Shown here in pieces: positions 1,794-11,291 of a DNA stretch of 24,592 bases (position 1 is the first letter of the stretch; each line of letters starts with the position of its first letter). Source of the DNA: a virus; IMG/VR virus record IMGVR_UViG_3300025917_000058, positions 1 through 24,592 of that record; one strand, 5' to 3'. The position numbers were made by a program, and so were the translations under genes. The notes below the pieces were generated by a model. It saw nothing but the letters and a program-made list of their open reading frames with translations. It did not search any database and was not told the DNA's origin.

Positions 1794-3242
1794 ATGACTA
1801 AGCTCGTCTTCAAGACCAAGCCCCGCCCCTACCAGATCCCTGCACTTAAGAAGCTACTCCGCAGTGATCATCCGGGGGGCGGGCTATGGGTTCCTATGCG
1901 GTGGGGAAAAACCTGGGTAGGGATTAACGCAGCCGCCGCCCTGAACCTCAAGTACGCCTACTACCGTGTACTAGTGGTAACGACTGTAGACGGCATCGGG
2001 GTGTGGGAAGACGAGTTCGAGAAGCACTGCCCTATCCCCTACAGACTGTTTGATAAGCATGGTGAGCTAGTAGGAGGATCACAGTACGGGGCTAGCTATG
2101 AGGCTCCGATGGTCCTGCACGTACAAATTGTGAACTATGAGTGGATCTACGATCGGGAGCGTCAGTACGACAAGAAAGGTAAGTACGAGGGGTGGGATGC
2201 GGTAACGAGAAAGCAGCTACACAAGTTCGAGCCACAGATTATCATCGTAGATGAGAGTCATCACATAGGTAACCCTTCACCTATCATCTCGCGCAAACTT
2301 TACCATCTCGCTAAGAAGGCTCCGGTCAAGATCTTCATGACAGGTACTCCTTGGCACCGCAAACCGTTCTACGTATTCGGGCAGTTCAAGATCTACGACG
2401 ACTCTATCTTCGGTACCAACTTCGGTCAGTTCAAGAAGATGATAGCGGTGTTCGGGGGTTACGGTGGTTATGAAGTCAAGTCATACCAGAATCTAAAGTG
2501 GCTAAGAGACAAGGTCAAACCGCATGTATTCATCAGCAAGAAGATTCCCTCCGCTCCCCCTGTGGTACGGAAGATCAAATTCTCCCTCGCTGAAAGCCGA
2601 GATACGTACGATAAGATGGCAAGCGAGTCCTTCGTTAGCATTGACGGTAACGCTATCACAGCTCCCATCGTTCTCACTCGTCACCTTCGGCTTGCTCAGA
2701 TTGCAGGAGGATGGACGACCGATGAAGAGGGGGTTCGTCATTGCGTTGGACAAGATAGGAGAAAGGCCTTCAGGCGACGACTCGCCGAGTTCGATCAGGC
2801 TGGGATCCAAAAGATTGTGGTGGGCTGTCGTTTCATCCCAGAGCTAAAGGATTGCGCACTAGAGGCGAAGGCAGCTGGATACTCCATATACCTACTCCAC
2901 GGGGGAGTCTCTAGGGTAGAGAGGAAGGCTAGGAGAGAGGCCTTTAGGACCGACACAAAGGCTGTGATGGTTTGTCAGTTTAGAGCCTCACGAGAAGCTG
3001 TGGATATGAGTACAGCCGACACGATGGTCTTCTACTCCCTGCCCGAAGACTACCTCACATACGACCAGTTTAAGGCACGTATCGCTAAGTATGGAGAGAC
3101 GCGCACGCTACTCTACGAACACCTAATAGCGAAAGGTACTGTAGATGAAACTACCTTCGAGGCTTTAATGCTTGGTAGGGATGTCGCCGATCACCTAATG
3201 AAAAACCCTAGCTATGTGGAGGAAAGATCTGTGAAGCTCTAG
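1794..3242 (+). CDS. SNF2/SF2-type DNA helicase or translocase (482 aa)
   Basis: This is a superfamily 2 ATPase with two RecA-like domains. Visible motifs are a Q-motif-like RPYQ (residues 11-14), a Walker A variant MRWGKT (35-40) in place of the usual MGxGKT, a Walker B DESHH (153-157), and motif III TGTP (about 183-186). The C-terminal half holds the helicase C domain, with LLHGGVSR, VCQFRAS and a motif VI written QFKARIAKYGE. The usual QxxxRxxRxGQ would have Arg where Lys stands. Phage members of this family are thought to act in DNA replication or recombination by moving along or remodelling DNA. The assignment as SNF2-like is firm; the exact job is not. Confidence 0.9.
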   Translation: MTKLVFKTKPRPYQIPALKKLLRSDHPGGGLWVPMRWGKTWVGINAAAALNLKYAYYRVLVVTTVDGIGVWEDEFEKHCPIPYRLFDKHGELVGGSQYGASYEAPMVLHVQIVNYEWIYDRERQYDKKGKYEGWDAVTRKQLHKFEPQIIIVDESHHIGNPSPIISRKLYHLAKKAPVKIFMTGTPWHRKPFYVFGQFKIYDDSIFGTNFGQFKKMIAVFGGYGGYEVKSYQNLKWLRDKVKPHVFISKKIPSAPPVVRKIKFSLAESRDTYDKMASESFVSIDGNAITAPIVLTRHLRLAQIAGGWTTDEEGVRHCVGQDRRKAFRRRLAEFDQAGIQKIVVGCRFIPELKDCALEAKAAGYSIYLLHGGVSRVERKARREAFRTDTKAVMVCQFRASREAVDMSTADTMVFYSLPEDYLTYDQFKARIAKYGETRTLLYEHLIAKGTVDETTFEALMLGRDVADHLMKNPSYVEERSVKL

Positions 3243-3295
3243 AGTGTTATATACTCTGTAGTAGAAAAACATTATCTTCAGAAACAGAGAAAACC
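3243..3295 (+). promoter_or_regulatory. AT-rich leader before the nucleotide cassette (possible promoter)
   Basis: This 53-nt gap is one of the few real gaps in the rightward block and is clearly more AT-rich than its surroundings. It holds a small inverted repeat (AGAGT at 3241-3245 and ACTCT at 3253-3257) and a TATACT word that could serve as a -10 element; no convincing -35 was found. The gene behind it starts with TTG and has no good Shine-Dalgarno. It could carry a promoter or a control site for the cassette, but neither is shown. Confidence 0.3.
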
Positions 3296-3874
3296 TTGAT
3301 CATAATAGAAGGGCCGGATGGAGCAGGCAAGTCAACCCTAGTCAGAAAGATCTGCGAACGGTACGACATCAAGACCGGAGAACGAGGGGTCAAGAACCGC
3401 GACCTCCTCTACACAGTAACAAAGCAGGACACTTACACTGCCCTAGCGGCAATGGTAAAGGGCGATGAAGCACCTAAGGTGTGGGATAGGCTCTACTACT
3501 CGGAGTTGGTCTACGCGTCTGTAGTAGGTCGGGTCCCGGAGTTTACTTTCACAGACCAAAGCTTTATCCAGAGAGTCATTTCCGCAGCCAAGCCTCCCGT
3601 GATCGTGTGCTTTCCTAGCTTTAAGAAGGTGCAAGAGAACATTACTAAGGACAAGCAGATGGAAGGCGTGGTAGATAACATCGCTCTTATCTATGCACGC
3701 TATCTGACGCTTCTCTCTAGTGGAGTTTTCCCAGACCACAGAATGCTCTACTCCTACGAGGCTACAGGTGGAGATGACTACGACACACTAGACGAGATCT
3801 TCGAGGAGATTGACGACTACCTAAACGATCGTAAGCAGAGGGAATGGGTATGGGCCTCAGAAACCAACAACTAG
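3296..3874 (+). CDS. Thymidylate kinase-like deoxynucleoside monophosphate kinase (192 aa)
   Basis: The protein begins MIIIEGPDGAGKST, a P-loop (GPDGAGKS, residues 6-13) preceded by a beta strand as in TMK-family dNMP kinases. WDRLYYSELVY (about residues 62-72) corresponds to the family's DR motif for substrate phosphate binding. Such enzymes transfer phosphate from ATP to a dNMP. In phages with altered bases they can phosphorylate the modified dNMP, as T4 gp1 does for hydroxymethyl-dCMP; T4 gp1 is only a functional parallel. No in-frame ATG or GTG exists between the upstream stop and the TTG at 3296, so TTG is the start. It opens the cassette with MazG, two TS-like genes and dCMP deaminase. 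Confidence 0.85.
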   Translation: MIIIEGPDGAGKSTLVRKICERYDIKTGERGVKNRDLLYTVTKQDTYTALAAMVKGDEAPKVWDRLYYSELVYASVVGRVPEFTFTDQSFIQRVISAAKPPVIVCFPSFKKVQENITKDKQMEGVVDNIALIYARYLTLLSSGVFPDHRMLYSYEATGGDDYDTLDEIFEEIDDYLNDRKQREWVWASETNN

Positions 3875-4167
3875 TAACACAGATATGGCGCGACAAAAAC
3901 TTCCCCGGAAGCGGATGGGAAGATCAACTAATCGGAATGATGGAGGAGTTAGGCGAGCTATCGCACGCCCTCCTAAAGCAGAAGCAGAAGATCAGAGGCG
4001 AAGAAGAGAAGCACGAGGCGGATGCCAAGGATGCCGTCGGAGACTTGCTTATCTACTTGATGGGCCTCTGTTCTGTAAGAGACTGGGATGTCGAAGAGAT
4101 TCTCAATGATACTGTGGATCAAGTCCTCGGTCGCGACTGGCAGGCTAATCCACAGGACGGCTCATGA
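3850..4167 (+). CDS. MazG-like nucleotide pyrophosphohydrolase (105 aa)
   Basis: An all-alpha NTP pyrophosphohydrolase: the metal-binding EExxE motif is at residues 32-36 (EELGE) and the partner DAVGD at 61-65, followed by LLIYL. These enzymes cut a (d)NTP to the monophosphate and pyrophosphate. T4 gp56 dCTPase/dUTPase belongs to the same superfamily. The ATG at 3850 is chosen because AGAGGGA (3837-3843) lies 6 nt upstream; the in-frame ATG at 3844 would abut that site. The gene starts inside the kinase gene and ends with ATGA into the first TS-like gene. In context it may remove an unmodified dNTP such as dCTP, an inference from neighbours. Confidence 0.85.
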   Translation: MGLRNQQLVTQIWRDKNFPGSGWEDQLIGMMEELGELSHALLKQKQKIRGEEEKHEADAKDAVGDLLIYLMGLCSVRDWDVEEILNDTVDQVLGRDWQANPQDGS

Positions 4168-4991
4168 TCAAATCTTACCAGACTCTAACGGACCTGTGGG
4201 TGCAAGGCTGTAAAGACCTTCTATACATGCCCGCCTCGAAGCTTTCCTGGGCTGCAGGAGCTACTACGGGGGTTTACGACAACCTCCTAGCCTGCAGAAG
4301 TATGGAGTACGACTTCGATCCGGGGAGGGACCTGTGGCTTACTAAGCACAGATTCCAGAAGCTGCAGAGGGACTACATCGATTATGACCTCCTTCCAGCC
4401 TTCGTAGAGAAGGCCGCAAGCATGAAGCCGATCCTAGCTAAGCGCGGGACAGTAACTCAGATGTCCTGTAGAGTCCACGGAATGGTAGAACATGCAAAGG
4501 GGAAGGACAACTACAAGTGGGGGAACTGCATCTTCGGGTTTAGTTTTCGTCCAAGTCAGTCCCAGGCAGGCGTATTTACTATGCATAGCCGAACGAGTTA
4601 CATATCGTATATGGGAGGCTATGATCTGGCTCTTGCGTATAAGATCGCAGAAGCCATCGCAAGACTGCGCGGGGATTCTGTTGAAGACTACGGCTTCCGG
4701 TGGCACGTTGATTCTCTACAGTGGTACTCAATCAAAGCGATGCCATTCATTCACGTCTACGATCTCGTTGATGAGGTCCGAGACGCAAGTCCGGGAAAGA
4801 TCAGCAAGTACCCCTCACTAGGGATCACACACAACTCCTACATGTTCCTGCAGAAGCGTTGGGATAACGAGGATCCACCGAAGTATGGACCGACCCACCG
4901 AATCTGGGATCTCATGTTCAATCGTTACCTAGCGGGCAATCCTCCGGCATCAGTTCCCCTTACCTCCCTATCCTTAGAGGCACTTAAGTGA
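4164..4991 (+). CDS. Divergent thymidylate synthase-fold protein 1 (275 aa)
   Basis: The middle of the protein follows the TS core. There is a candidate catalytic Cys (C122 in GNCIFGFSF) and, 21 residues later, R143 in SRTSYISYMGGYD, which corresponds to the phosphate-binding RSxD segment of TS. Eleven residues after R143 is D154, the position of E. coli N177; Asp there is typical of dCMP-specific relatives. WHVDSLQWYS resembles the TS GDxHxYxNH segment but lacks its His. The first ~100 residues are unlike TS. It may modify a pyrimidine nucleotide or be a non-classical partner of the next gene's product. It is coupled to MazG by ATGA and to the next gene by GTGA. The family call rests on motif spacing read by eye. 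Confidence 0.5.
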   Translation: MIKSYQTLTDLWVQGCKDLLYMPASKLSWAAGATTGVYDNLLACRSMEYDFDPGRDLWLTKHRFQKLQRDYIDYDLLPAFVEKAASMKPILAKRGTVTQMSCRVHGMVEHAKGKDNYKWGNCIFGFSFRPSQSQAGVFTMHSRTSYISYMGGYDLALAYKIAEAIARLRGDSVEDYGFRWHVDSLQWYSIKAMPFIHVYDLVDEVRDASPGKISKYPSLGITHNSYMFLQKRWDNEDPPKYGPTHRIWDLMFNRYLAGNPPASVPLTSLSLEALK

Positions 4992-5848
4992 TCACCTACC
5001 AAAGCACTAACTACACTCTCGGCTTCGATGGAATGGTAAGCCACATCAAGAGAGACTTCACTGCAGCCCTTCCTGTGGATACCGGCCACTGGCAAGCCCT
5101 AAAGGGTGTTCCACAGACCAAGACGTTCGAGCTACAGAATGTAGCACTAGAGGTTCCCATCGCGGCTATACCTAACGACTGGGCACGAGAGACAGAACCT
5201 AACATGCCCTGGGCAGAGGCTCAGTTCCAGGAGCGCGTAGGTGGTAAGCCGGTCAATCCAGGAGAGACATACAAGGCCTGGCCCTACTATCGCGGGAATG
5301 TAGAGAAGCACCAAGACAAGGAGCAACAGTTCAGCCACACGTACATGGAGCGCTTCTGGCCAAAGTTTGCAAACACAGGCCAAACTCGACCTAATGGTCG
5401 TCAAGTGTTTGTTCCTCACAACGGAATTAGATACGAGTATGGTGACCTAGGAGATGTACTAGACCTTCTAATCCAAGAGCCACATACACGCCAGGCCTAT
5501 CTGCCGATCTTCTTTCCGGAGGATACAGGAGCCCATCACAGAGAGCGGATCCCCTGTACGCTAGGGTATCACTTTATGCTAAGGCAAGACAAGCTCTCCT
5601 GCTTCTATCCCATCCGCTCCTGTGACTTCTATCGACACTTCAGGGACGATGTCTATATGGCCGGGCGACTAGTGCAGTGGATTATCTCTCAGCTAGTTGA
5701 TCGTGTAGGACTGGAAGATCAGCCGGCGTACGCAGAAGAGACTGACAATGTGTGGAATGCAGTAACCCCCGGTAACCTGACGATGTTCATCCCGAGCCTA
5801 CACATCTTCGAAGGAGATATGCCTCGCCTAAAGAGAGAACTAGCATGA
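4988..5848 (+). CDS. Thymidylate synthase family enzyme with dCMP-hydroxymethylase signature (286 aa)
   Basis: This is a clear TS-family protein. It has YGDLGDVLDLL and EPHTRQA (R168, TS phosphate Arg), the nucleophile C190 in IPCTLGYHF, then R210-S-C-D213 exactly 20 residues later as in E. coli TS (C146, R166), and FIPSLHIFEGD (TS GDxHxY). At the position of the TS uracil-selecting Asn (E. coli N177, R+11) it has D221. Asp here is the established mark of dCMP hydroxymethylases (T4 gp42) and switches TS towards cytosine. So the likely reaction is addition of a one-carbon group from methylene-tetrahydrofolate to C5 of dCMP. The start is GTG at 4988 in a GTGA overlap. Whether the product is hydroxymethyl-, methyl- or otherwise substituted dCMP cannot be read from the sequence. 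Confidence 0.75.
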   Translation: MITYQSTNYTLGFDGMVSHIKRDFTAALPVDTGHWQALKGVPQTKTFELQNVALEVPIAAIPNDWARETEPNMPWAEAQFQERVGGKPVNPGETYKAWPYYRGNVEKHQDKEQQFSHTYMERFWPKFANTGQTRPNGRQVFVPHNGIRYEYGDLGDVLDLLIQEPHTRQAYLPIFFPEDTGAHHRERIPCTLGYHFMLRQDKLSCFYPIRSCDFYRHFRDDVYMAGRLVQWIISQLVDRVGLEDQPAYAEETDNVWNAVTPGNLTMFIPSLHIFEGDMPRLKRELA

Positions 5849-6273
5849 GACCGACACGAGAGGAGACGTACCTTGAAATCTGTGGAGTCCTCCGAAAGCG
5901 GAGCACCTGCCTCCGAGGTAAAGTTGGAGCTATCCTGGTCAAGGATCGACGAATTATCTCCACAGGCTATAACGGAAGTCCTCCGGGTGCTCCACACTGC
6001 GATGACCTCGGCTGTTCAGTCCCGGAAAACGAGCACGAAGCAGGGTGCCTCCGAACCATTCACGCTGAAGCTAACGTTATCGCATACGCTGCCCGCCATA
6101 ACGGTGGAGCTGAAGGATCCGCTCTCTACTGCACTCACTCCCCCTGTCTGAAGTGTGCTCAGCTTCTAGTTTCTGCAGGAGTCGTAGAGGTGCACTACAA
6201 GACCCTCTACCGTATCCCAGACGGTGTAGACCTTCTGCAGTCTCTAGGCATCCTGACTTTCTACCATGAGTGA
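5845..6273 (+). CDS. dCMP deaminase (142 aa)
   Basis: This is a zinc-dependent deaminase with the catalytic HAEAN (H73, E75) and PCLKC (C101, C104) zinc ligands, and the substrate-binding stretch GYNGSPPGAPHC (residues 41-52) typical of deoxycytidylate deaminases. It converts dCMP to dUMP, feeding dTMP synthesis. The length is normal for the family. It overlaps the preceding TS-family gene by ATGA and the polymerase gene by 8 nt, so it is firmly part of the cassette. With a dCMP-type TS relative next door it would share the dCMP pool between thymine and modified cytosine, as in T4. Confidence 0.92.
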   Translation: MRPTREETYLEICGVLRKRSTCLRGKVGAILVKDRRIISTGYNGSPPGAPHCDDLGCSVPENEHEAGCLRTIHAEANVIAYAARHNGGAEGSALYCTHSPCLKCAQLLVSAGVVEVHYKTLYRIPDGVDLLQSLGILTFYHE

Positions 6274-8698
6274 CTTCCGAGAGAAACTACGCAACCCAGA
6301 CTGTGAACTCTGTCCTCTTAACGAGGGAGCAGAGTTTGTTTGCCTTCTGGGATCCGGGCCTCCTAGGGCAAAGATCATGGTTGTAGGGGAGGCTCCGGGA
6401 GGTACAGAGGATGATGAAGGTCTTCCTTTCGTGGGATCCGCAGGTAGGCTGCTAGACAAGTCACTAAAGGAACTAGGCAACCTCGACAGGGACGACCTCT
6501 ACGTCACTAACGTAGCGAAGTGTAGGCCACCAGAAAATCGTGCACCAGAGCTGAAAGAGATCAAGGCCTGTGTTAGCTCCTACCTTCTCGAAGAGTTCAA
6601 AGCGGTCAAGCCGGACTTTGTACTCCTACTCGGCAACTCTGCTCTTAGGGGTGTTATTGGGAAGTCTGGGATTACGAAGCAAGCAGGCTCGGTCTTCAAG
6701 GTCGAAGTTGCTTCGGGACATTGGGCTAGGATCATGCCCACCATCCATCCCGCTGCGGTTCTACGAAACCCCAAGTGGACAAGTACATTTAAGGCGGATA
6801 TTACGAGGTTCGGCAACCTGGTGCGAGGACTCGATCCGTCTCCACAGACTAGAGTCAAGATTGTTAAGAACAAGAGGCAACTGCGATGGCTCCTAGAGCA
6901 GCTAGCAGAAGCTACCGAAATCTCCTGGGACATCGAGACATCTAATGACCCTGTGGAGAAACCTTACGTCCGAACTAACTTCCAGGACTGGCACGGAGAA
7001 GAGTCCCATATCACTTCTTGCTGCTTCTCCTGGGAAGAGGGCATGGCCGAAGTAGTTCCTTTCCATCATCCCGATACTCCGTGGACTAATCCCGAGAAGG
7101 TGCTATCAGTCTTCAAGGATGTAATGACTAGGGAGGGCGTGAAGTACATCGGTCATAATGGAAAGTTCGATGCAAGGTGGTTCCACAGCAAGGGGATCCC
7201 CGTACCCCAGACTTTCGATACGATGCTAGCAGCGCATATGCTAGACGAGAACCAGCCGAAAGGCCTAAAGCCACAGAGCAAAGTAGTGCTAGGGGCTAAT
7301 GCTTACGACGTAGGTGAGGAACTAAAGAACGCAAAGAACATTCCACTAAAGCGCCTCTGCACCTATAACGGTAAGGACACCGACTACACCCTACGCCTCT
7401 ATCATGTACAGAGAGAGCAACTAAAGGCTGAGCCTAGGGTAGCTAGGGTCTTCTCGAAGCTTATGATGCCTGCAAGTGAGGCTCTAGTGGATATTGAGAG
7501 AACCGGAGTCTGGGTAGACCCGGAGAGATGGGAGACACGATACATACAGGCGTGCGAGACTAGGGACAAGATCCACAAGTTCATCTCTCAGTACGCGGGA
7601 TGGGACATCAACCTCAACTCTCCACAGCAGGTAGGCAAGCTTCTCTTCGATGTGCTAAAGCTACCCATCATCGCTAAGACTAAGAAAGGTGCTCCATCTA
7701 CAGCGGAAGCTACCCTCCTTCGCATTGCAGACCAACACAAAGTAGCTACTGCACTTATCAAGTACAGGAAGTGGGCTAAGTATGTCAACACCTACCTCGG
7801 ACCATGGAAGTACGAATGGATGGATTCGGGAGGAAGGATACACAGCTCGTACAAGCTCTTTGGCACGGTCACTGGCAGACTTTCTGGTGAAGGAGGCATT
7901 CAACAAGTCCCGCGAGACCCGTTCATACGCGGTGTCATTGGAGCGACACCGGGATGGAGTTTCCTTCAGGCTGACTATTCGCAAGTTGAGCTAAGAATCG
8001 CAGCCATGCTCTCGGGCGACAAGAAGATGCTCGGGCAGTACCTCCGTGGGGAAGACATCCACATGATCCGGGCTATGCGAATGACGGGTAAGCCTGCAGA
8101 TCAGGTAAGCAAGGAGGAGAGGAAGAAAGCCAAGGCCGTGAACTTCGGTTACATCTACTCGATGGGAGCTAAGAAGTTCGTCAGCTATGCCTTTGATAAC
8201 TACGACCTCAAGATTACACTAGAAGAGGCAGAGGCAGATAGACGTTCGTTCTTCGAGGACTACCAATCCCTAAGGCCTTGGCACGCTAGACAGAGGAAAC
8301 TAGCCCAGAGGTACGGCAGGGTCCAGTCTCCTATCGGACGCATCCGACACCTACCGGATATCAAGTCCGAGGATGAGAAGGTACGAGCAGAGGCAGAGAG
8401 GCAGGCGATCAACTCTCCTGTCCAGTCCTTTGCCTCCGATCTAATGCTCCTATCTCTAGTTGAACTCCACAGGAACCTAGACCGCAAGAGATGCCGTATC
8501 GTAGGTACAGTTCACGACTCTATCCTCTTCGAGGTCAAGCAAGGCTATGAGGACGAGTACGCAGAGATAATCAAAAACCAGATGGAGGACATGTCCCTCG
8601 TGAAGAAGAAGTTCGCCACAGAAGTAACAGTACCTATCGTAGCCGATATCGAAATCGGGACGCACTGGGGGGAGACAAAGCCATGGGTCAGAAGCTAA
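6266..8698 (+). CDS. UDG (family 4)-DNA polymerase I fusion with 3'-5' exonuclease (810 aa)
   Basis: Residues 1-190 form a family-4/5-type uracil-DNA glycosylase domain: the four Fe-S cysteines C13, C16, C86 and C102, the GEAPG motif at 41-45, GLPFVGSAGRLLD, and HPAAVLRN beginning at H161. The DEDDy exonuclease follows: DIET (D222, E224), GHNGKFDARW, and a NGKDTDYTLRL third motif. The C-terminal half is a family A polymerase: motif A DYSQVELR (D570), motif B AKAVNFGYIYSMG (about 624-636) with Phe at the E. coli F762 position and Tyr at Y766, and motif C VHDS (D751). There is no 5' nuclease domain. It is probably the replicative polymerase. A UDG-like N-terminus on a phage family A polymerase is known from SPO1, a hydroxymethyluracil phage. 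The domain could scan the template for uracil. Confidence 0.92.
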   Translation: MSDFREKLRNPDCELCPLNEGAEFVCLLGSGPPRAKIMVVGEAPGGTEDDEGLPFVGSAGRLLDKSLKELGNLDRDDLYVTNVAKCRPPENRAPELKEIKACVSSYLLEEFKAVKPDFVLLLGNSALRGVIGKSGITKQAGSVFKVEVASGHWARIMPTIHPAAVLRNPKWTSTFKADITRFGNLVRGLDPSPQTRVKIVKNKRQLRWLLEQLAEATEISWDIETSNDPVEKPYVRTNFQDWHGEESHITSCCFSWEEGMAEVVPFHHPDTPWTNPEKVLSVFKDVMTREGVKYIGHNGKFDARWFHSKGIPVPQTFDTMLAAHMLDENQPKGLKPQSKVVLGANAYDVGEELKNAKNIPLKRLCTYNGKDTDYTLRLYHVQREQLKAEPRVARVFSKLMMPASEALVDIERTGVWVDPERWETRYIQACETRDKIHKFISQYAGWDINLNSPQQVGKLLFDVLKLPIIAKTKKGAPSTAEATLLRIADQHKVATALIKYRKWAKYVNTYLGPWKYEWMDSGGRIHSSYKLFGTVTGRLSGEGGIQQVPRDPFIRGVIGATPGWSFLQADYSQVELRIAAMLSGDKKMLGQYLRGEDIHMIRAMRMTGKPADQVSKEERKKAKAVNFGYIYSMGAKKFVSYAFDNYDLKITLEEAEADRRSFFEDYQSLRPWHARQRKLAQRYGRVQSPIGRIRHLPDIKSEDEKVRAEAERQAINSPVQSFASDLMLLSLVELHRNLDRKRCRIVGTVHDSILFEVKQGYEDEYAEIIKNQMEDMSLVKKKFATEVTVPIVADIEIGTHWGETKPWVRS

Positions 8699-8910
8699 GC
8701 AAGAGGAAAAGGTACGCAGCCTGTCGGGGGATCCAGAACCAGGCCACACTCCTAGCTCATGTAGAGCACGAACTGTGGAGAGCAGGTAACGTCGAGAAGG
8801 GCGGCCTAATGGAAGGTGAACGAGAGTACCTAGAGAAGCGGGCCGAGATGTTAAAGAAGGTACGTGAAGACCTAGGCAAACTAGGATCAAGATTGCAAGG
8901 AACATTATGA
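8683..8910 (+). CDS. Small basic helical hypothetical protein (75 aa)
   Basis: Basic and almost wholly helical: KLSKRKR at the start, then two helices rich in Glu, Lys and Leu (EREYLEKRAEMLKKVREDL) that could form a coiled coil. No domain is recognised. It starts inside the polymerase gene behind a GGGGGGAGA ribosome site and ends with ATGA into the nuclease gene, so it is translationally tied to both replication neighbours. A small accessory factor for polymerase or nuclease is possible but is a guess. Confidence 0.65.
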   Translation: MGQKLSKRKRYAACRGIQNQATLLAHVEHELWRAGNVEKGGLMEGEREYLEKRAEMLKKVREDLGKLGSRLQGTL

Positions 8911-9875
8911 CAGAGATGGTCCTATCGAACTCCAGGACCAAAACCTGGAGGCGGTGTCCTAACCTATACCGCTACAAATATGTGATGGGTCTAAAGCCAA
9001 AGAAAGAGCAGTCAGCTCTACGCAGAGGCTCTTGGCTCCACGAGCTATTCCAGGTTCACTACGACGGTGAGGACTGGAAGAAGCGCCACAGAGAGCTCAC
9101 CGCAGAGTTCAACCTCATGTTCGAGGAGGAAAGGGCTGACCTAGGCGACCTCCCTAGTGAGTGTGCAAGGATCTTTATCGCCTACTTGATGAACTACCGG
9201 GACGAGGACTCACACTATAAGATCATCGACTCCGAGCTTGACGAGGTAATCACGCTACCTAACGGTCTGAAGTTCCGGATGATCATTGACCTTATCGTAG
9301 AGGAGCCCGACGGGGGACTGTGGCTCTGGGACCATAAGACCGTCAAGAACTTCATGGATGCAGACTTCCTCCTTATCGATGCACAGCTTACGCGATACTT
9401 CTGGGGAGCCGAACACCTCGGATATAAGAACCTTCGTGGGGTAATCTTCAACGAGGTAATCACTGCTCCGCCTACGCGTCCTGAGCTACTAAAGAACGGA
9501 CGCCTAACCGAACGGCAGAACCTACGGTGCGATGTCTATACCTACTACCGCGAGATCAAGCGTCTAGGTCAGGATCCTAAGGACTACCGCAAGACGCTTG
9601 CTAGGCTTGCCACACAGAACGACAGATGGTTCCGTCGAACAAGACTTGCCAAGGACCGAGCCATGACTACTCAGATGATGCAAGAGCTAGTCTATACAGC
9701 GCAAGAGATGCAGAGGGCCGAGAGGACAGGTCATTTCCCGCGGACTCCTGATCGGTCCTGCACCTTCGGTTGCAGCTTCCTAAACCTTTGCCAAATGGAA
9801 CTCCAAGGAGGAGATACAGCACCTCTTATCAAGATGAACTACACCGACAGAACAGACAGGACGGAGGACGTCTAG
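8907..9875 (+). CDS. Cas4/RecB-like PD-(D/E)XK exonuclease with Fe-S cysteines (322 aa)
   Basis: The nuclease core shows LHELF near residue 47, an acidic strand MIIDLIVEEPDGG (D about 131) and LWDHKT (about 146-151), giving the D...(D/E)xK catalytic set of the RecB/Cas4 family. One Cys near the N-terminus (RRCPNLYRY) and three near the C-terminus (CTFGCSFLNLC) match the four-Cys iron-sulfur cluster of AddB/Cas4-type nucleases. Such phage enzymes process DNA ends for recombination. The gene sits next to a Sak4-like ATPase and an SSB-like protein, a common phage recombination trio. It couples upstream by ATGA, and the next gene begins directly after its stop. The tail after about residue 300 is polar. 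Confidence 0.88.
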   Translation: MTEMVLSNSRTKTWRRCPNLYRYKYVMGLKPKKEQSALRRGSWLHELFQVHYDGEDWKKRHRELTAEFNLMFEEERADLGDLPSECARIFIAYLMNYRDEDSHYKIIDSELDEVITLPNGLKFRMIIDLIVEEPDGGLWLWDHKTVKNFMDADFLLIDAQLTRYFWGAEHLGYKNLRGVIFNEVITAPPTRPELLKNGRLTERQNLRCDVYTYYREIKRLGQDPKDYRKTLARLATQNDRWFRRTRLAKDRAMTTQMMQELVYTAQEMQRAERTGHFPRTPDRSCTFGCSFLNLCQMELQGGDTAPLIKMNYTDRTDRTEDV

Positions 9876-10646
9876 GTGGCAAAGCAAGTTAGCCACACAA
9901 AAGCCGTAGAGAGTATCGGCAAAAGGATCAGACCTGTGGATGAGATTAGCCCACACGCTAAGGTGTTAGTCTACGGTCGCAATAAGAATGGTAAGACCAA
10001 GTTCGCGGCTACGGCTCCGAAGGTTCTTATCATTGACATCGACGAGGAGGGTACGAGGTCTGCCGTAGGATCCGGTGCACAGGTTGTAGAGGTATCAACC
10101 TTTGATGAGGTTGCTCACGTCTACTGGTACCTAAAGGCTGGAAACCACGGATACAAGAGCGTAGCGATCGACACGATCACTGCACTGCAGAACGCAGCGC
10201 TACGCAAGGTACTAGGTGAGGCAGAGGATCGGGACCCCACACGAGAGCCTTCCACACCAGATAGGCGTACGTGGGGTAGAGCTAACCAGCTAGTCAAGGG
10301 GTTGCTCCTAGACTTCCGCAACTTGCCGATGAACGTAGTCTTCCTAGCACAGGAACGAGTTATCAACGACGAGGAGTCTGATGAAGCTGCACTCCACACA
10401 GTAGACCTCCCGGCAGGATCTAGAGCTGTGGCCCTAGGTTGTGTCGGTATCATCGGTCGGATCTACTTGCGAGAGGCTAAGGTCAAAGGCAAGAAGAATC
10501 CACAGTGGGAAGCCCGAATGCTAGTGGGATCCCACGAAGAGTATGACACTGGAAACCGTGTCAGCACTCTACCTCGTATCATTCGTAACCCAAACATGAA
10601 GAACATTATCAAAGAGTGGCGTGCTAACGCTACAGAAGGAGAGTAA
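9876..10646 (+). CDS. Sak4-like RecA-fold ATPase / recombinase (256 aa)
   Basis: The GTG at 9876 follows the previous TAG directly. VLVYGRNKNGKTKFA holds a Walker A (GRNKNGKT, about residues 34-41) and YKSVAIDTIT a Walker B strand ending in Asp. LRNLPMNVVFLAQE fits the RecA-core strand that follows. The size and order match Sak4-type (AAA_24) phage single-strand-annealing ATPases, which help pair homologous DNA together with an SSB, and an SSB-like gene is next. It lacks the N- and C-terminal domains of full RecA. The fold call is firm; the Sak4 label rests on size, motifs and neighbours. Confidence 0.82.
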   Translation: MAKQVSHTKAVESIGKRIRPVDEISPHAKVLVYGRNKNGKTKFAATAPKVLIIDIDEEGTRSAVGSGAQVVEVSTFDEVAHVYWYLKAGNHGYKSVAIDTITALQNAALRKVLGEAEDRDPTREPSTPDRRTWGRANQLVKGLLLDFRNLPMNVVFLAQERVINDEESDEAALHTVDLPAGSRAVALGCVGIIGRIYLREAKVKGKKNPQWEARMLVGSHEEYDTGNRVSTLPRIIRNPNMKNIIKEWRANATEGE

Positions 10647-10649
10647 CAC

Positions 10650-11291
10650 GTGGCTAAGAAAGACGTTCTGAGCATTGACTTTACCAAGGAAGAGGAGGGC
10701 GGCGGAGGAGGTCGTGTTAAGTGGCCTGAGGGAGACTATCACGTCAAGATCGTGAAGTCTAGGACCGGACGCTCCTCTGAGAAGGACACTCCATACCTAG
10801 AGGTCACCTTCAAGGTTCTAGAGGGCAAGAAGAAGGGCAAGGAGATTAGCGAGAAGCTATACCTCACGCCCAAGAGCCTGAAGCGCGTTCGTATGCTTCT
10901 AGAGGCCATCGGAGTCAAGGTTCCGAAGAGTGCCATCAATCTCCCTCTAGCCAAGCTCAAGGGTAAGACTCTGTGGATCGAACTACAGGATGAAGAGTCA
11001 GACGGTTACGATCCTCGTTCTCGTGTTGCCTTCGAGGGATTTATGTCAGAGGATGACTACACTCCCGAGGATGAAGATGATGATGAAGACGATGAGGACG
11101 TTGAAGACGACGAAGATGATGACGAAGACGATGATGAAGATGACGATGAAGACGATGAAGATGACGACGATGAGGATGACGAAGAGGAAGAAGTAAAGCC
11201 GAAGAAGAAGGCAAAGGCCAAGGCCAAGCCGAAGGCCAAGAAGAAGAAGGATGACGACGAGATCGAAGACCTCGATTTGGATTTGCTCTAG
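10650..11291 (+). CDS. SSB-like (DUF669-type) protein with long acidic tract and basic tail (213 aa)
   Basis: Residues 1-135 resemble phage ssDNA-binding proteins of the DUF669 type: WPEGDYHVKI, TPYLEVTFKVLEGKKKGKEI, LYLTPKSLKRVRMLLEAIG, then LKGKTLWIEL. Residues 140-181 are acidic except for one Val (41 of 42 are Asp or Glu). A Lys/Ala/Pro stretch follows (about 183-201) and the protein ends in a second acidic piece, DDDEIEDLDLDLL, like the acidic C-terminal tip by which bacterial SSBs recruit partners. The start is GTG at 10650 with AAGGAGAG upstream. It is probably the partner of the Sak4-like protein. The long alternating acid-base-acid tail is unusual and could compete with DNA for the binding face or recruit replication proteins. 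Confidence 0.72.
   Translation: MAKKDVLSIDFTKEEEGGGGGRVKWPEGDYHVKIVKSRTGRSSEKDTPYLEVTFKVLEGKKKGKEISEKLYLTPKSLKRVRMLLEAIGVKVPKSAINLPLAKLKGKTLWIELQDEESDGYDPRSRVAFEGFMSEDDYTPEDEDDDEDDEDVEDDEDDDEDDDEDDDEDDEDDDDEDDEEEEVKPKKKAKAKAKPKAKKKKDDDEIEDLDLDLL
11067..11192 (+). repeat. GAY/GAR trinucleotide tract encoding 41 of 42 acidic residues
   Basis: This run of GAT, GAC, GAA and GAG codons is low in complexity and prone to slippage, so its length may vary between related phages. Codons are mixed (GAT/GAC, GAA/GAG) rather than one repeated triplet, which suggests selection for acidic residues more than recent expansion. The opposite strand reads as an artefactual poly-Ser ORF. Confidence 0.85.

Follow-up and report, generated by a model that had tools for sequence, protein, structure and literature searches.

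A divergent thymidylate synthase-fold protein encoded beside a TS-like partner in phage operons, a candidate for a second C5 step in cytosine nucleotide modification

Why would a phage encode two thymidylate synthase (TS)-fold proteins in tandem, one of them extremely divergent from TS? We addressed this question in a viral fragment from IMG/VR (record IMGVR_UViG_3300025917_000058; the window is the whole stretch of 24,592 nucleotides analyzed). The divergent companion protein is here called C and its TS-like partner T. Their open reading frames share 4 nt (4164-4991 and 4988-5848) and lie in an operon with the order kinase, NTP pyrophosphatase, C, T, dCMP deaminase, and PolA:

3296..3874, + strand: dNMP kinase-like gene, TTG start (phrog_761 thymidylate kinase, E 3.5e-17)
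3844..4167, + strand: MazG/dUTPase_2-like NTP pyrophosphatase gene (phrog_715, E 4.3e-8)
4164..4991, + strand: C, companion TS-fold protein, 275 aa, ATG start (AlphaFold2 pLDDT 95.4; TS superfamily by Foldseek and VIA; phrog_13667)
4988..5848, + strand: T, TS-like partner of C, 286 aa, GTG start (PF00303, E 5.2e-4, below cut-off; phrog_160, E 2.7e-26)
5845..6273, + strand: dCMP deaminase gene (PF00383, E 2.7e-22; phrog_174, E 2.9e-48)
6266..8698, + strand: family-A DNA polymerase with an N-terminal uracil-DNA glycosylase (UDG) domain (PF00476, E 7.5e-91; PF03167, E 4.9e-32)

The kinase-like gene occupies the same place in the operons of relatives, and its product is likely a kinase for modified dCMP or dTMP. 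The MazG-like protein would likely convert dCTP or dUTP to dCMP or dUMP; in phage Serbin, the homologous slot is filled by a PF08761 (dUTPase_2) gene. The UDG of the polymerase fusion (6266-8698) is type-4-like, and a similar fusion is found in locus L167 (1347-3752). Profile searching of the window did not identify a glycosyltransferase in this 24.6-kb fragment.

The first-pass annotation had read the frame at 4164-4991 as a TS-fold protein with Cys122, with Arg143 21 residues further on, and with Asp154 another 11 residues downstream. All of these are present, and the AlphaFold2 model, Foldseek, and VIA agree on a TS rather than a non-TS fold. The model, built from a 97-row alignment of IMG/VR relatives, had a pLDDT of 95.4 and a pTM of 0.92. 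When it was compared to the PDB, the best Foldseek match was the CMP hydroxymethylase MilA (E 1.5e-6, prob 1.00), followed by the dCMP hydroxylase AfhB of phage HY126 (2.6e-6) and then by TS and the T4 dCMP hydroxymethylase. VIA-align ranked AfhB as the closest fold (Z 14.8/14.4 over 187 residues, 3.7 A), MilA second (14.1, in effect a tie), and TS lower (about 10.5), with alignments to TS-superfamily structures covering about 180 residues. We regard the predicted TS/dCMP-hydroxymethylase fold of C as confirmed as far as computation can show it. The first 100 residues had been described as unlike TS, which is true of the sequence but not of the fold: as the model-structure alignments span residues 1 to 200, the N-terminal part belongs to the TS fold. 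The His of the GDxHxY motif is indeed lost in the window protein, which has Gln186, but about 31 of 164 relatives carry His in that column.

At the sequence level, the relationship became visible in a profile-profile comparison of 164 C relatives with 207 T sequences (score, 36.8; E 1.3e-4), in which Cys122 was paired with Cys190 of T, Arg143 with Arg210, and Asp154 with Asp221. As control comparisons scored at most 18.1 (40 column shuffles, best 18.1; one-sided reversals, 13.6 to 14.3), this register is not due to chance. An earlier comparison with only 7 T sequences had given the correct register without significance, which came with the deeper alignments. The sequence profile of C retrieved zero TS-superfamily chains from the PDB at E<=10, AfhB included, and one chance match (E 0.97). 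Pfam assigned no family to the window protein, and PF00303 was absent among 97 relatives. PHROG 13667, whose function is unassigned, matched the window protein (3.5e-25) and 86 of 97 C members, and it thereby gains a fold and a likely substrate class.

Five positions of C describe its predicted active site, the register of Cys122 being taken from hhalign:

4374..4376, + strand: Tyr71 codon of C (Tyr in 159/159 relatives)
4527..4529, + strand: Cys122 codon of C, predicted catalytic nucleophile (TS C146; 160/160)
4590..4592, + strand: Arg143 codon of C, predicted phosphate ligand (TS R166; 160/160)
4599..4601, + strand: Tyr146 codon of C, where TS has its folate-contact Asp169 (Y 92, E 56, S 10, L 2, in no case D)
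4623..4625, + strand: Asp154 codon of C, at the place of TS Asn177, the cytosine-type specificity residue (159/160 Asp, 1 Glu)

From established TS knowledge, we take Cys122 to be the C6 nucleophile, Arg143 the phosphate ligand, and Asp154 the residue that sets base specificity. Tyr71 may stand at the place of the catalytic Glu58 of TS, a register drawn by eye that we leave open. The uracil-type Asn177 is absent from C, which has Asp154 instead, and an ordinary TS is ruled out because the Asn177 and Asp169 places both fail. Judged from these residues, C looks like an active enzyme specific for cytosine, and the near-invariance of Cys, Arg, Tyr, and Asp speaks for an enzyme and not a scaffold. 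A catalytically dead paralogue that serves structure or regulation would suit the extreme divergence of C from TS, the missing Pfam match of the window protein, and the loss of the folate-contact residue, but Cys122, Arg143, Asp154, and Tyr71 are kept, (nearly) invariant, down to 10 to 20% overall identity, and we rejected such a pseudoenzyme as highly improbable.

The partner T retains more of the TS active site:

5555..5557, + strand: Cys190 codon of T (TS C146; 206/207)
5624..5626, + strand: Asp213 codon of T (TS D169, folate contact; 202/207 Asp, 5 Glu)
5648..5650, + strand: Asp221 codon of T (TS N177; 205/207 Asp)

The folate-type motif RSxD is present in T (RSCD) and absent from C (RTSY). 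Because the Asp169 place is never Asp in C, is Asp in 202 of 207 T sequences, and is Asn in AfhB, C probably does not use folate in the manner of TS, whereas T may; in 56 C members, Glu takes this position and might nonetheless touch folate. Arg168 of T, the equivalent of the TS R126/R127 pair, is invariant (207/207), and C has no conserved equivalent of that pair. The best profile match of T was MilA (5.5e-8), followed by AfhB (about 4e-7), and in structure comparison its domain was about equally close to AfhB and TS (Z 18.6 to 17.3). The C-terminal extension seen in TS and in the T4 dCMP hydroxymethylase is missing from T, which is AfhB-like there. We tentatively predict that T is of either the dCMP hydroxymethylase or the hydroxylase type. 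T need not make dTMP, as phage Huwbert encodes a separate canonical TS with Asn177 in addition to C and T.

The first-pass annotation had proposed co-occurrence of the two genes in related phages as a check, and this association proved very strong: C stands beside T in 157 of 204 nonredundant T loci. The others carry a homologue of C5-cytosine methyltransferases (PF00145; here called M) without C (8 loci), a carbamoyltransferase (2 loci), or none of these (31 loci, mostly one clade of large phages), and 6 were too truncated to judge. No C was found in a whole-record search of 30 C-less T records, including the two with a carbamoyltransferase; the query had no positive in that search, but it found C in the L167 record elsewhere. 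C without T was not seen where the contig extends (the sequences of L045 and L046 stop immediately behind C, and L011 is fragmentary). C depends on the presence of T; T works without C, because T alone, or T together with other modifiers, exists. A genome-contig scan for C with a 5-row alignment matched only two metagenome-assembled contigs, so that C is, on that scan, essentially a phage gene.

Named phages with the module are Shrew, Burnsey, KimJongPhill, Huwbert, Serbin, Strzyga, P744, PMBT14, and LS06-2018-MD02. Apart from small insertions, their gene order is kinase, dUTPase/MazG, C, T, dCMP deaminase, DNA polymerase I, Cas4-type exonuclease, and Sak4, with Strzyga (no deaminase listed) and LS06-2018-MD02 (no kinase) as exceptions. 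The annotated names in these phages are "hypothetical protein" for C and "thymidylate synthase" for T. Actinophages, which the first reading of the window had proposed to survey, do carry the pair, but it is not restricted to them, being found in Serratia, Pseudomonas, Yersinia, and Brevundimonas phages too.

We next consider the loci in which M stands in the absence of C (five of them with an asparagine-synthase-type glutamine amidotransferase gene beside M):

L101: M at 8825-10087
L102: M at 8870-9946
L125: M at 3488-4771; amidotransferase at 1927-3210
L130: M at 3393-4649; amidotransferase at 1479-2840
L236: M at 3964-6126; amidotransferase at 1946-3394
L237: M at 5893-7014
L238: M at 4921-6138; amidotransferase at 3218-4624
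L309: M at 2205-3611; amidotransferase at 844-2256

M is found at four points in the T tree, no fewer than three of them on starred branches, and is embedded there among relatives that carry C. Within the C-bearing part of the tree, M occurs in 8 of 9 C-less loci versus 0 of 157 C-bearing loci (Fisher p 7e-13, with phylogeny ignored). The phylogeny-aware sign test gave 3 opposite, 0 same, and 2 tied pairs (p 0.25); the apparent exchange, though striking, amounts to three events, and the pattern was noticed before the sample was enlarged. PF00145 was present in the records of 8 of 9 C-less and 2 of 40 C-bearing loci, and a whole-record search of six M-bearing records found no C. With M present instead of C in at least three separate lineages, the pattern suggests that both act at cytosine C5, although M in C-less loci could alternatively be an unrelated anti-restriction gene.

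In most M proteins, Asp replaces the Glu of the ENV motif (D[DN]L), and the nucleophile motif is HPEC or HPPC. These altered motifs and the neighboring amidotransferase hint at hypermodification instead of plain methylation, perhaps yielding amide- or amine-bearing DNA. The M of L236 (3964-6126) has an insert of >200 aa directly after the catalytic Cys, which is intein-like and possibly includes an endonuclease domain. The two loci that combine T with a TobZ/NodU-type carbamoyltransferase (PF16861) and no companion, L141 (2009-3682) and L195, are consistent with the published 5hmC carbamoyltransferase, whose domain was shown to act on 5hmdC (PMC8670742).

The exchange also bears on whether C and T form one heteromeric TS-type enzyme, a possibility raised in the first-pass annotation, with the chains completing each other's active site (for example, Arg168 of T reaching into the site of C). 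TS enzymes are dimers with sites shared between chains, C lacks the R126/R127-type pair that T keeps in 207 of 207 sequences, and adjacency of the two genes is near constant, with frequent 4-nt or 1-nt overlaps. However, T is the only one of the two in about 31 phages, mostly large ones, and in the 8 phages carrying M, and M, which is no possible TS-fold dimer partner, stands where C is absent in three lineages, which disfavors a heteromer. A linked model of L041, in which adjacent C and T were read through the natural stop as one chain (118 aligned rows; pLDDT 90.6), gave confident domains but a pTM of 0.58, near the value for two unplaced domains; it showed no confident interface and is compatible with either the presence or the absence of one. 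We consider a heterodimer distinctly unlikely.

Somewhat less doubtful, but still improbable in our view, is that C is a parallel dCMP-level enzyme, for example an AfhB-like flavin 5-hydroxylase or a dCMP 5-methylase, yielding a modified base additional to the one that T makes. In structure, C comes closest to AfhB, both proteins lack the folate-contact Asp, and a dCMP methylase would explain the exchange with M. This leaves unexplained why, on contigs that extend, C always came with T; moreover, C and AfhB have no direct sequence match, and Pfam and PHROG profile searches of the window found no flavin reductase in the operon around C.

We favor, tentatively and at a little under an even chance, that C is an active, highly divergent TS-superfamily enzyme working on C5 of a cytosine deoxynucleotide in a pathway that swaps dCTP for modified dCTP. 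A two-step modification had been proposed as the alternative to a heteromer, and it fits better; the second C5 step is favored by the combination of a cytosine-type Asp and a nucleophile, the lack of a folate contact, and the apparent exchange with a C5 methyltransferase homologue. With the fold, the conserved active-site residues, the operon, the co-occurrence, and the separability of T from C computed here, we infer the substrate, the order of steps, and the chemistry, including this second step, as follows. The MazG-like pyrophosphatase would convert dCTP to dCMP, to which T, as a dCMP 5-hydroxymethylase or 5-hydroxylase, would add the first C5 group. C would then take a cytosine nucleotide, most likely the product of T; Cys122 would attack C6 while Asp154 holds the base and Arg143 the phosphate, and a second, folate-independent change at C5 would follow. 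The dNMP kinase and a cellular kinase would yield the modified triphosphate, which the UDG-PolA polymerase would incorporate, and the dCMP deaminase would supply dTMP synthesis. That C founds a new TS-superfamily class acting on already modified dCMP (5hm- or 5-OH-dCMP), whose C5 group it would exchange or enlarge independently of folate, is possible, though we would expect otherwise. If true, two TS-fold enzymes in series would complete DNA hypermodification at the nucleotide level, and for the second of these steps a divergent DNA C5-methyltransferase, working postreplicatively, could substitute.

Both hydroxymethylases and hydroxylases of dCMP are already known in the TS superfamily, and modified-cytosine phages have been found to carry TS-like genes with Asp177 (PMC8670742, PMC13390438). 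The closest fold to C, AfhB, is by near-identity RB69 ORF048, a flavin-dependent phage dCMP 5-hydroxylase (5-hodCMP synthase; PDB 9iqu, 9iqc), and the Mosigvirus enzyme was reported to make 5-hydroxy-dCMP (PMC13390438). AfhB shares with C the TS fold, Asp at the Asn177 place, the lack of the folate-contact Asp (Asn in AfhB), a cytosine nucleotide, and a phage DNA-modification context, but the two have 8% identity over the 187 aligned residues, and C has about 70 more C-terminal residues with a conserved R246 and accompanies a second TS-like gene. MilA (PDB 5jnh/5b6d), a CMP 5-hydroxymethylase, likewise has the TS fold, cytosine-type specificity, and a nucleophilic Cys, but it is a ribonucleotide enzyme of antibiotic biosynthesis with 10 to 11% identity to C. 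For T, the role model is the dCMP 5-hydroxymethylase gp42 of T4 (PDB 1b5e/6a9b), with which it shares Asp at the Asn177 place and the RSxD motif, and T4 likewise possesses a dCTPase, a dNMP kinase, and a dCMP deaminase function; gp42 is, however, a single gene with no companion and keeps the C-terminal tail. The 5hmC carbamoyltransferase systems found by MetaGPA resemble the module in that MazG-like and dCMP-deaminase genes adjoin a TS-like gene (Asp177, residue 147 altered), but no companion is described there and the downstream enzyme is a carbamoyltransferase (PMC8670742).

The pairing had been called undescribed, and in the open-licence literature we found no description of C or of a second divergent TS-fold family in tandem; two GenBank records, however, already label C "pyrimidine hmase synthase" (Yersinia phage P744, MW202455), most others having "hypothetical protein." Publications on P744, PMBT14, and Serbin contained no DNA-modification data. 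Serratia phage Serbin (L005) is related to the dG+-modified phage 9g without having the queuosine-type cluster of 9g (PMC6509536), and in this group the C-T module may provide a different modification instead. The pair possibly represents unrecognized C5-cytosine nucleotide chemistry in phages of actinobacteria, enterics, pseudomonads, and many uncultured hosts, with a possible role in disguising DNA from restriction or CRISPR systems and as a possible source of new cytosine-labeling enzymes. Culturable phages with the module, such as Gordonia phage Cozz, Streptomyces phage Zuko, Serratia phage Serbin, and Pseudomonas phage PMBT14, could reveal a new base.

Some loci vary in gene content. In L018, three TS-fold genes lie in a row (4941-5948, 5948-6871, and 6868-7671), two companions followed by the TS-like gene; the companions are 36% identical, with Cys, Arg, Asp, and Tyr intact in both. 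L095 has a companion (3834-4661), the TS-like gene (4926-5741), and a second, divergent companion on its far side (6008-6808). In the large phage of L200, the TS-like gene has a family-2 glycosyltransferase and a DegT aminotransferase among its neighbors (4327-5115, 9719-10879). Gordonia phage Burnsey (L002, 7831-8670) carries a lysin B gene within the modification operon, between the TS-like gene and the dCMP deaminase.
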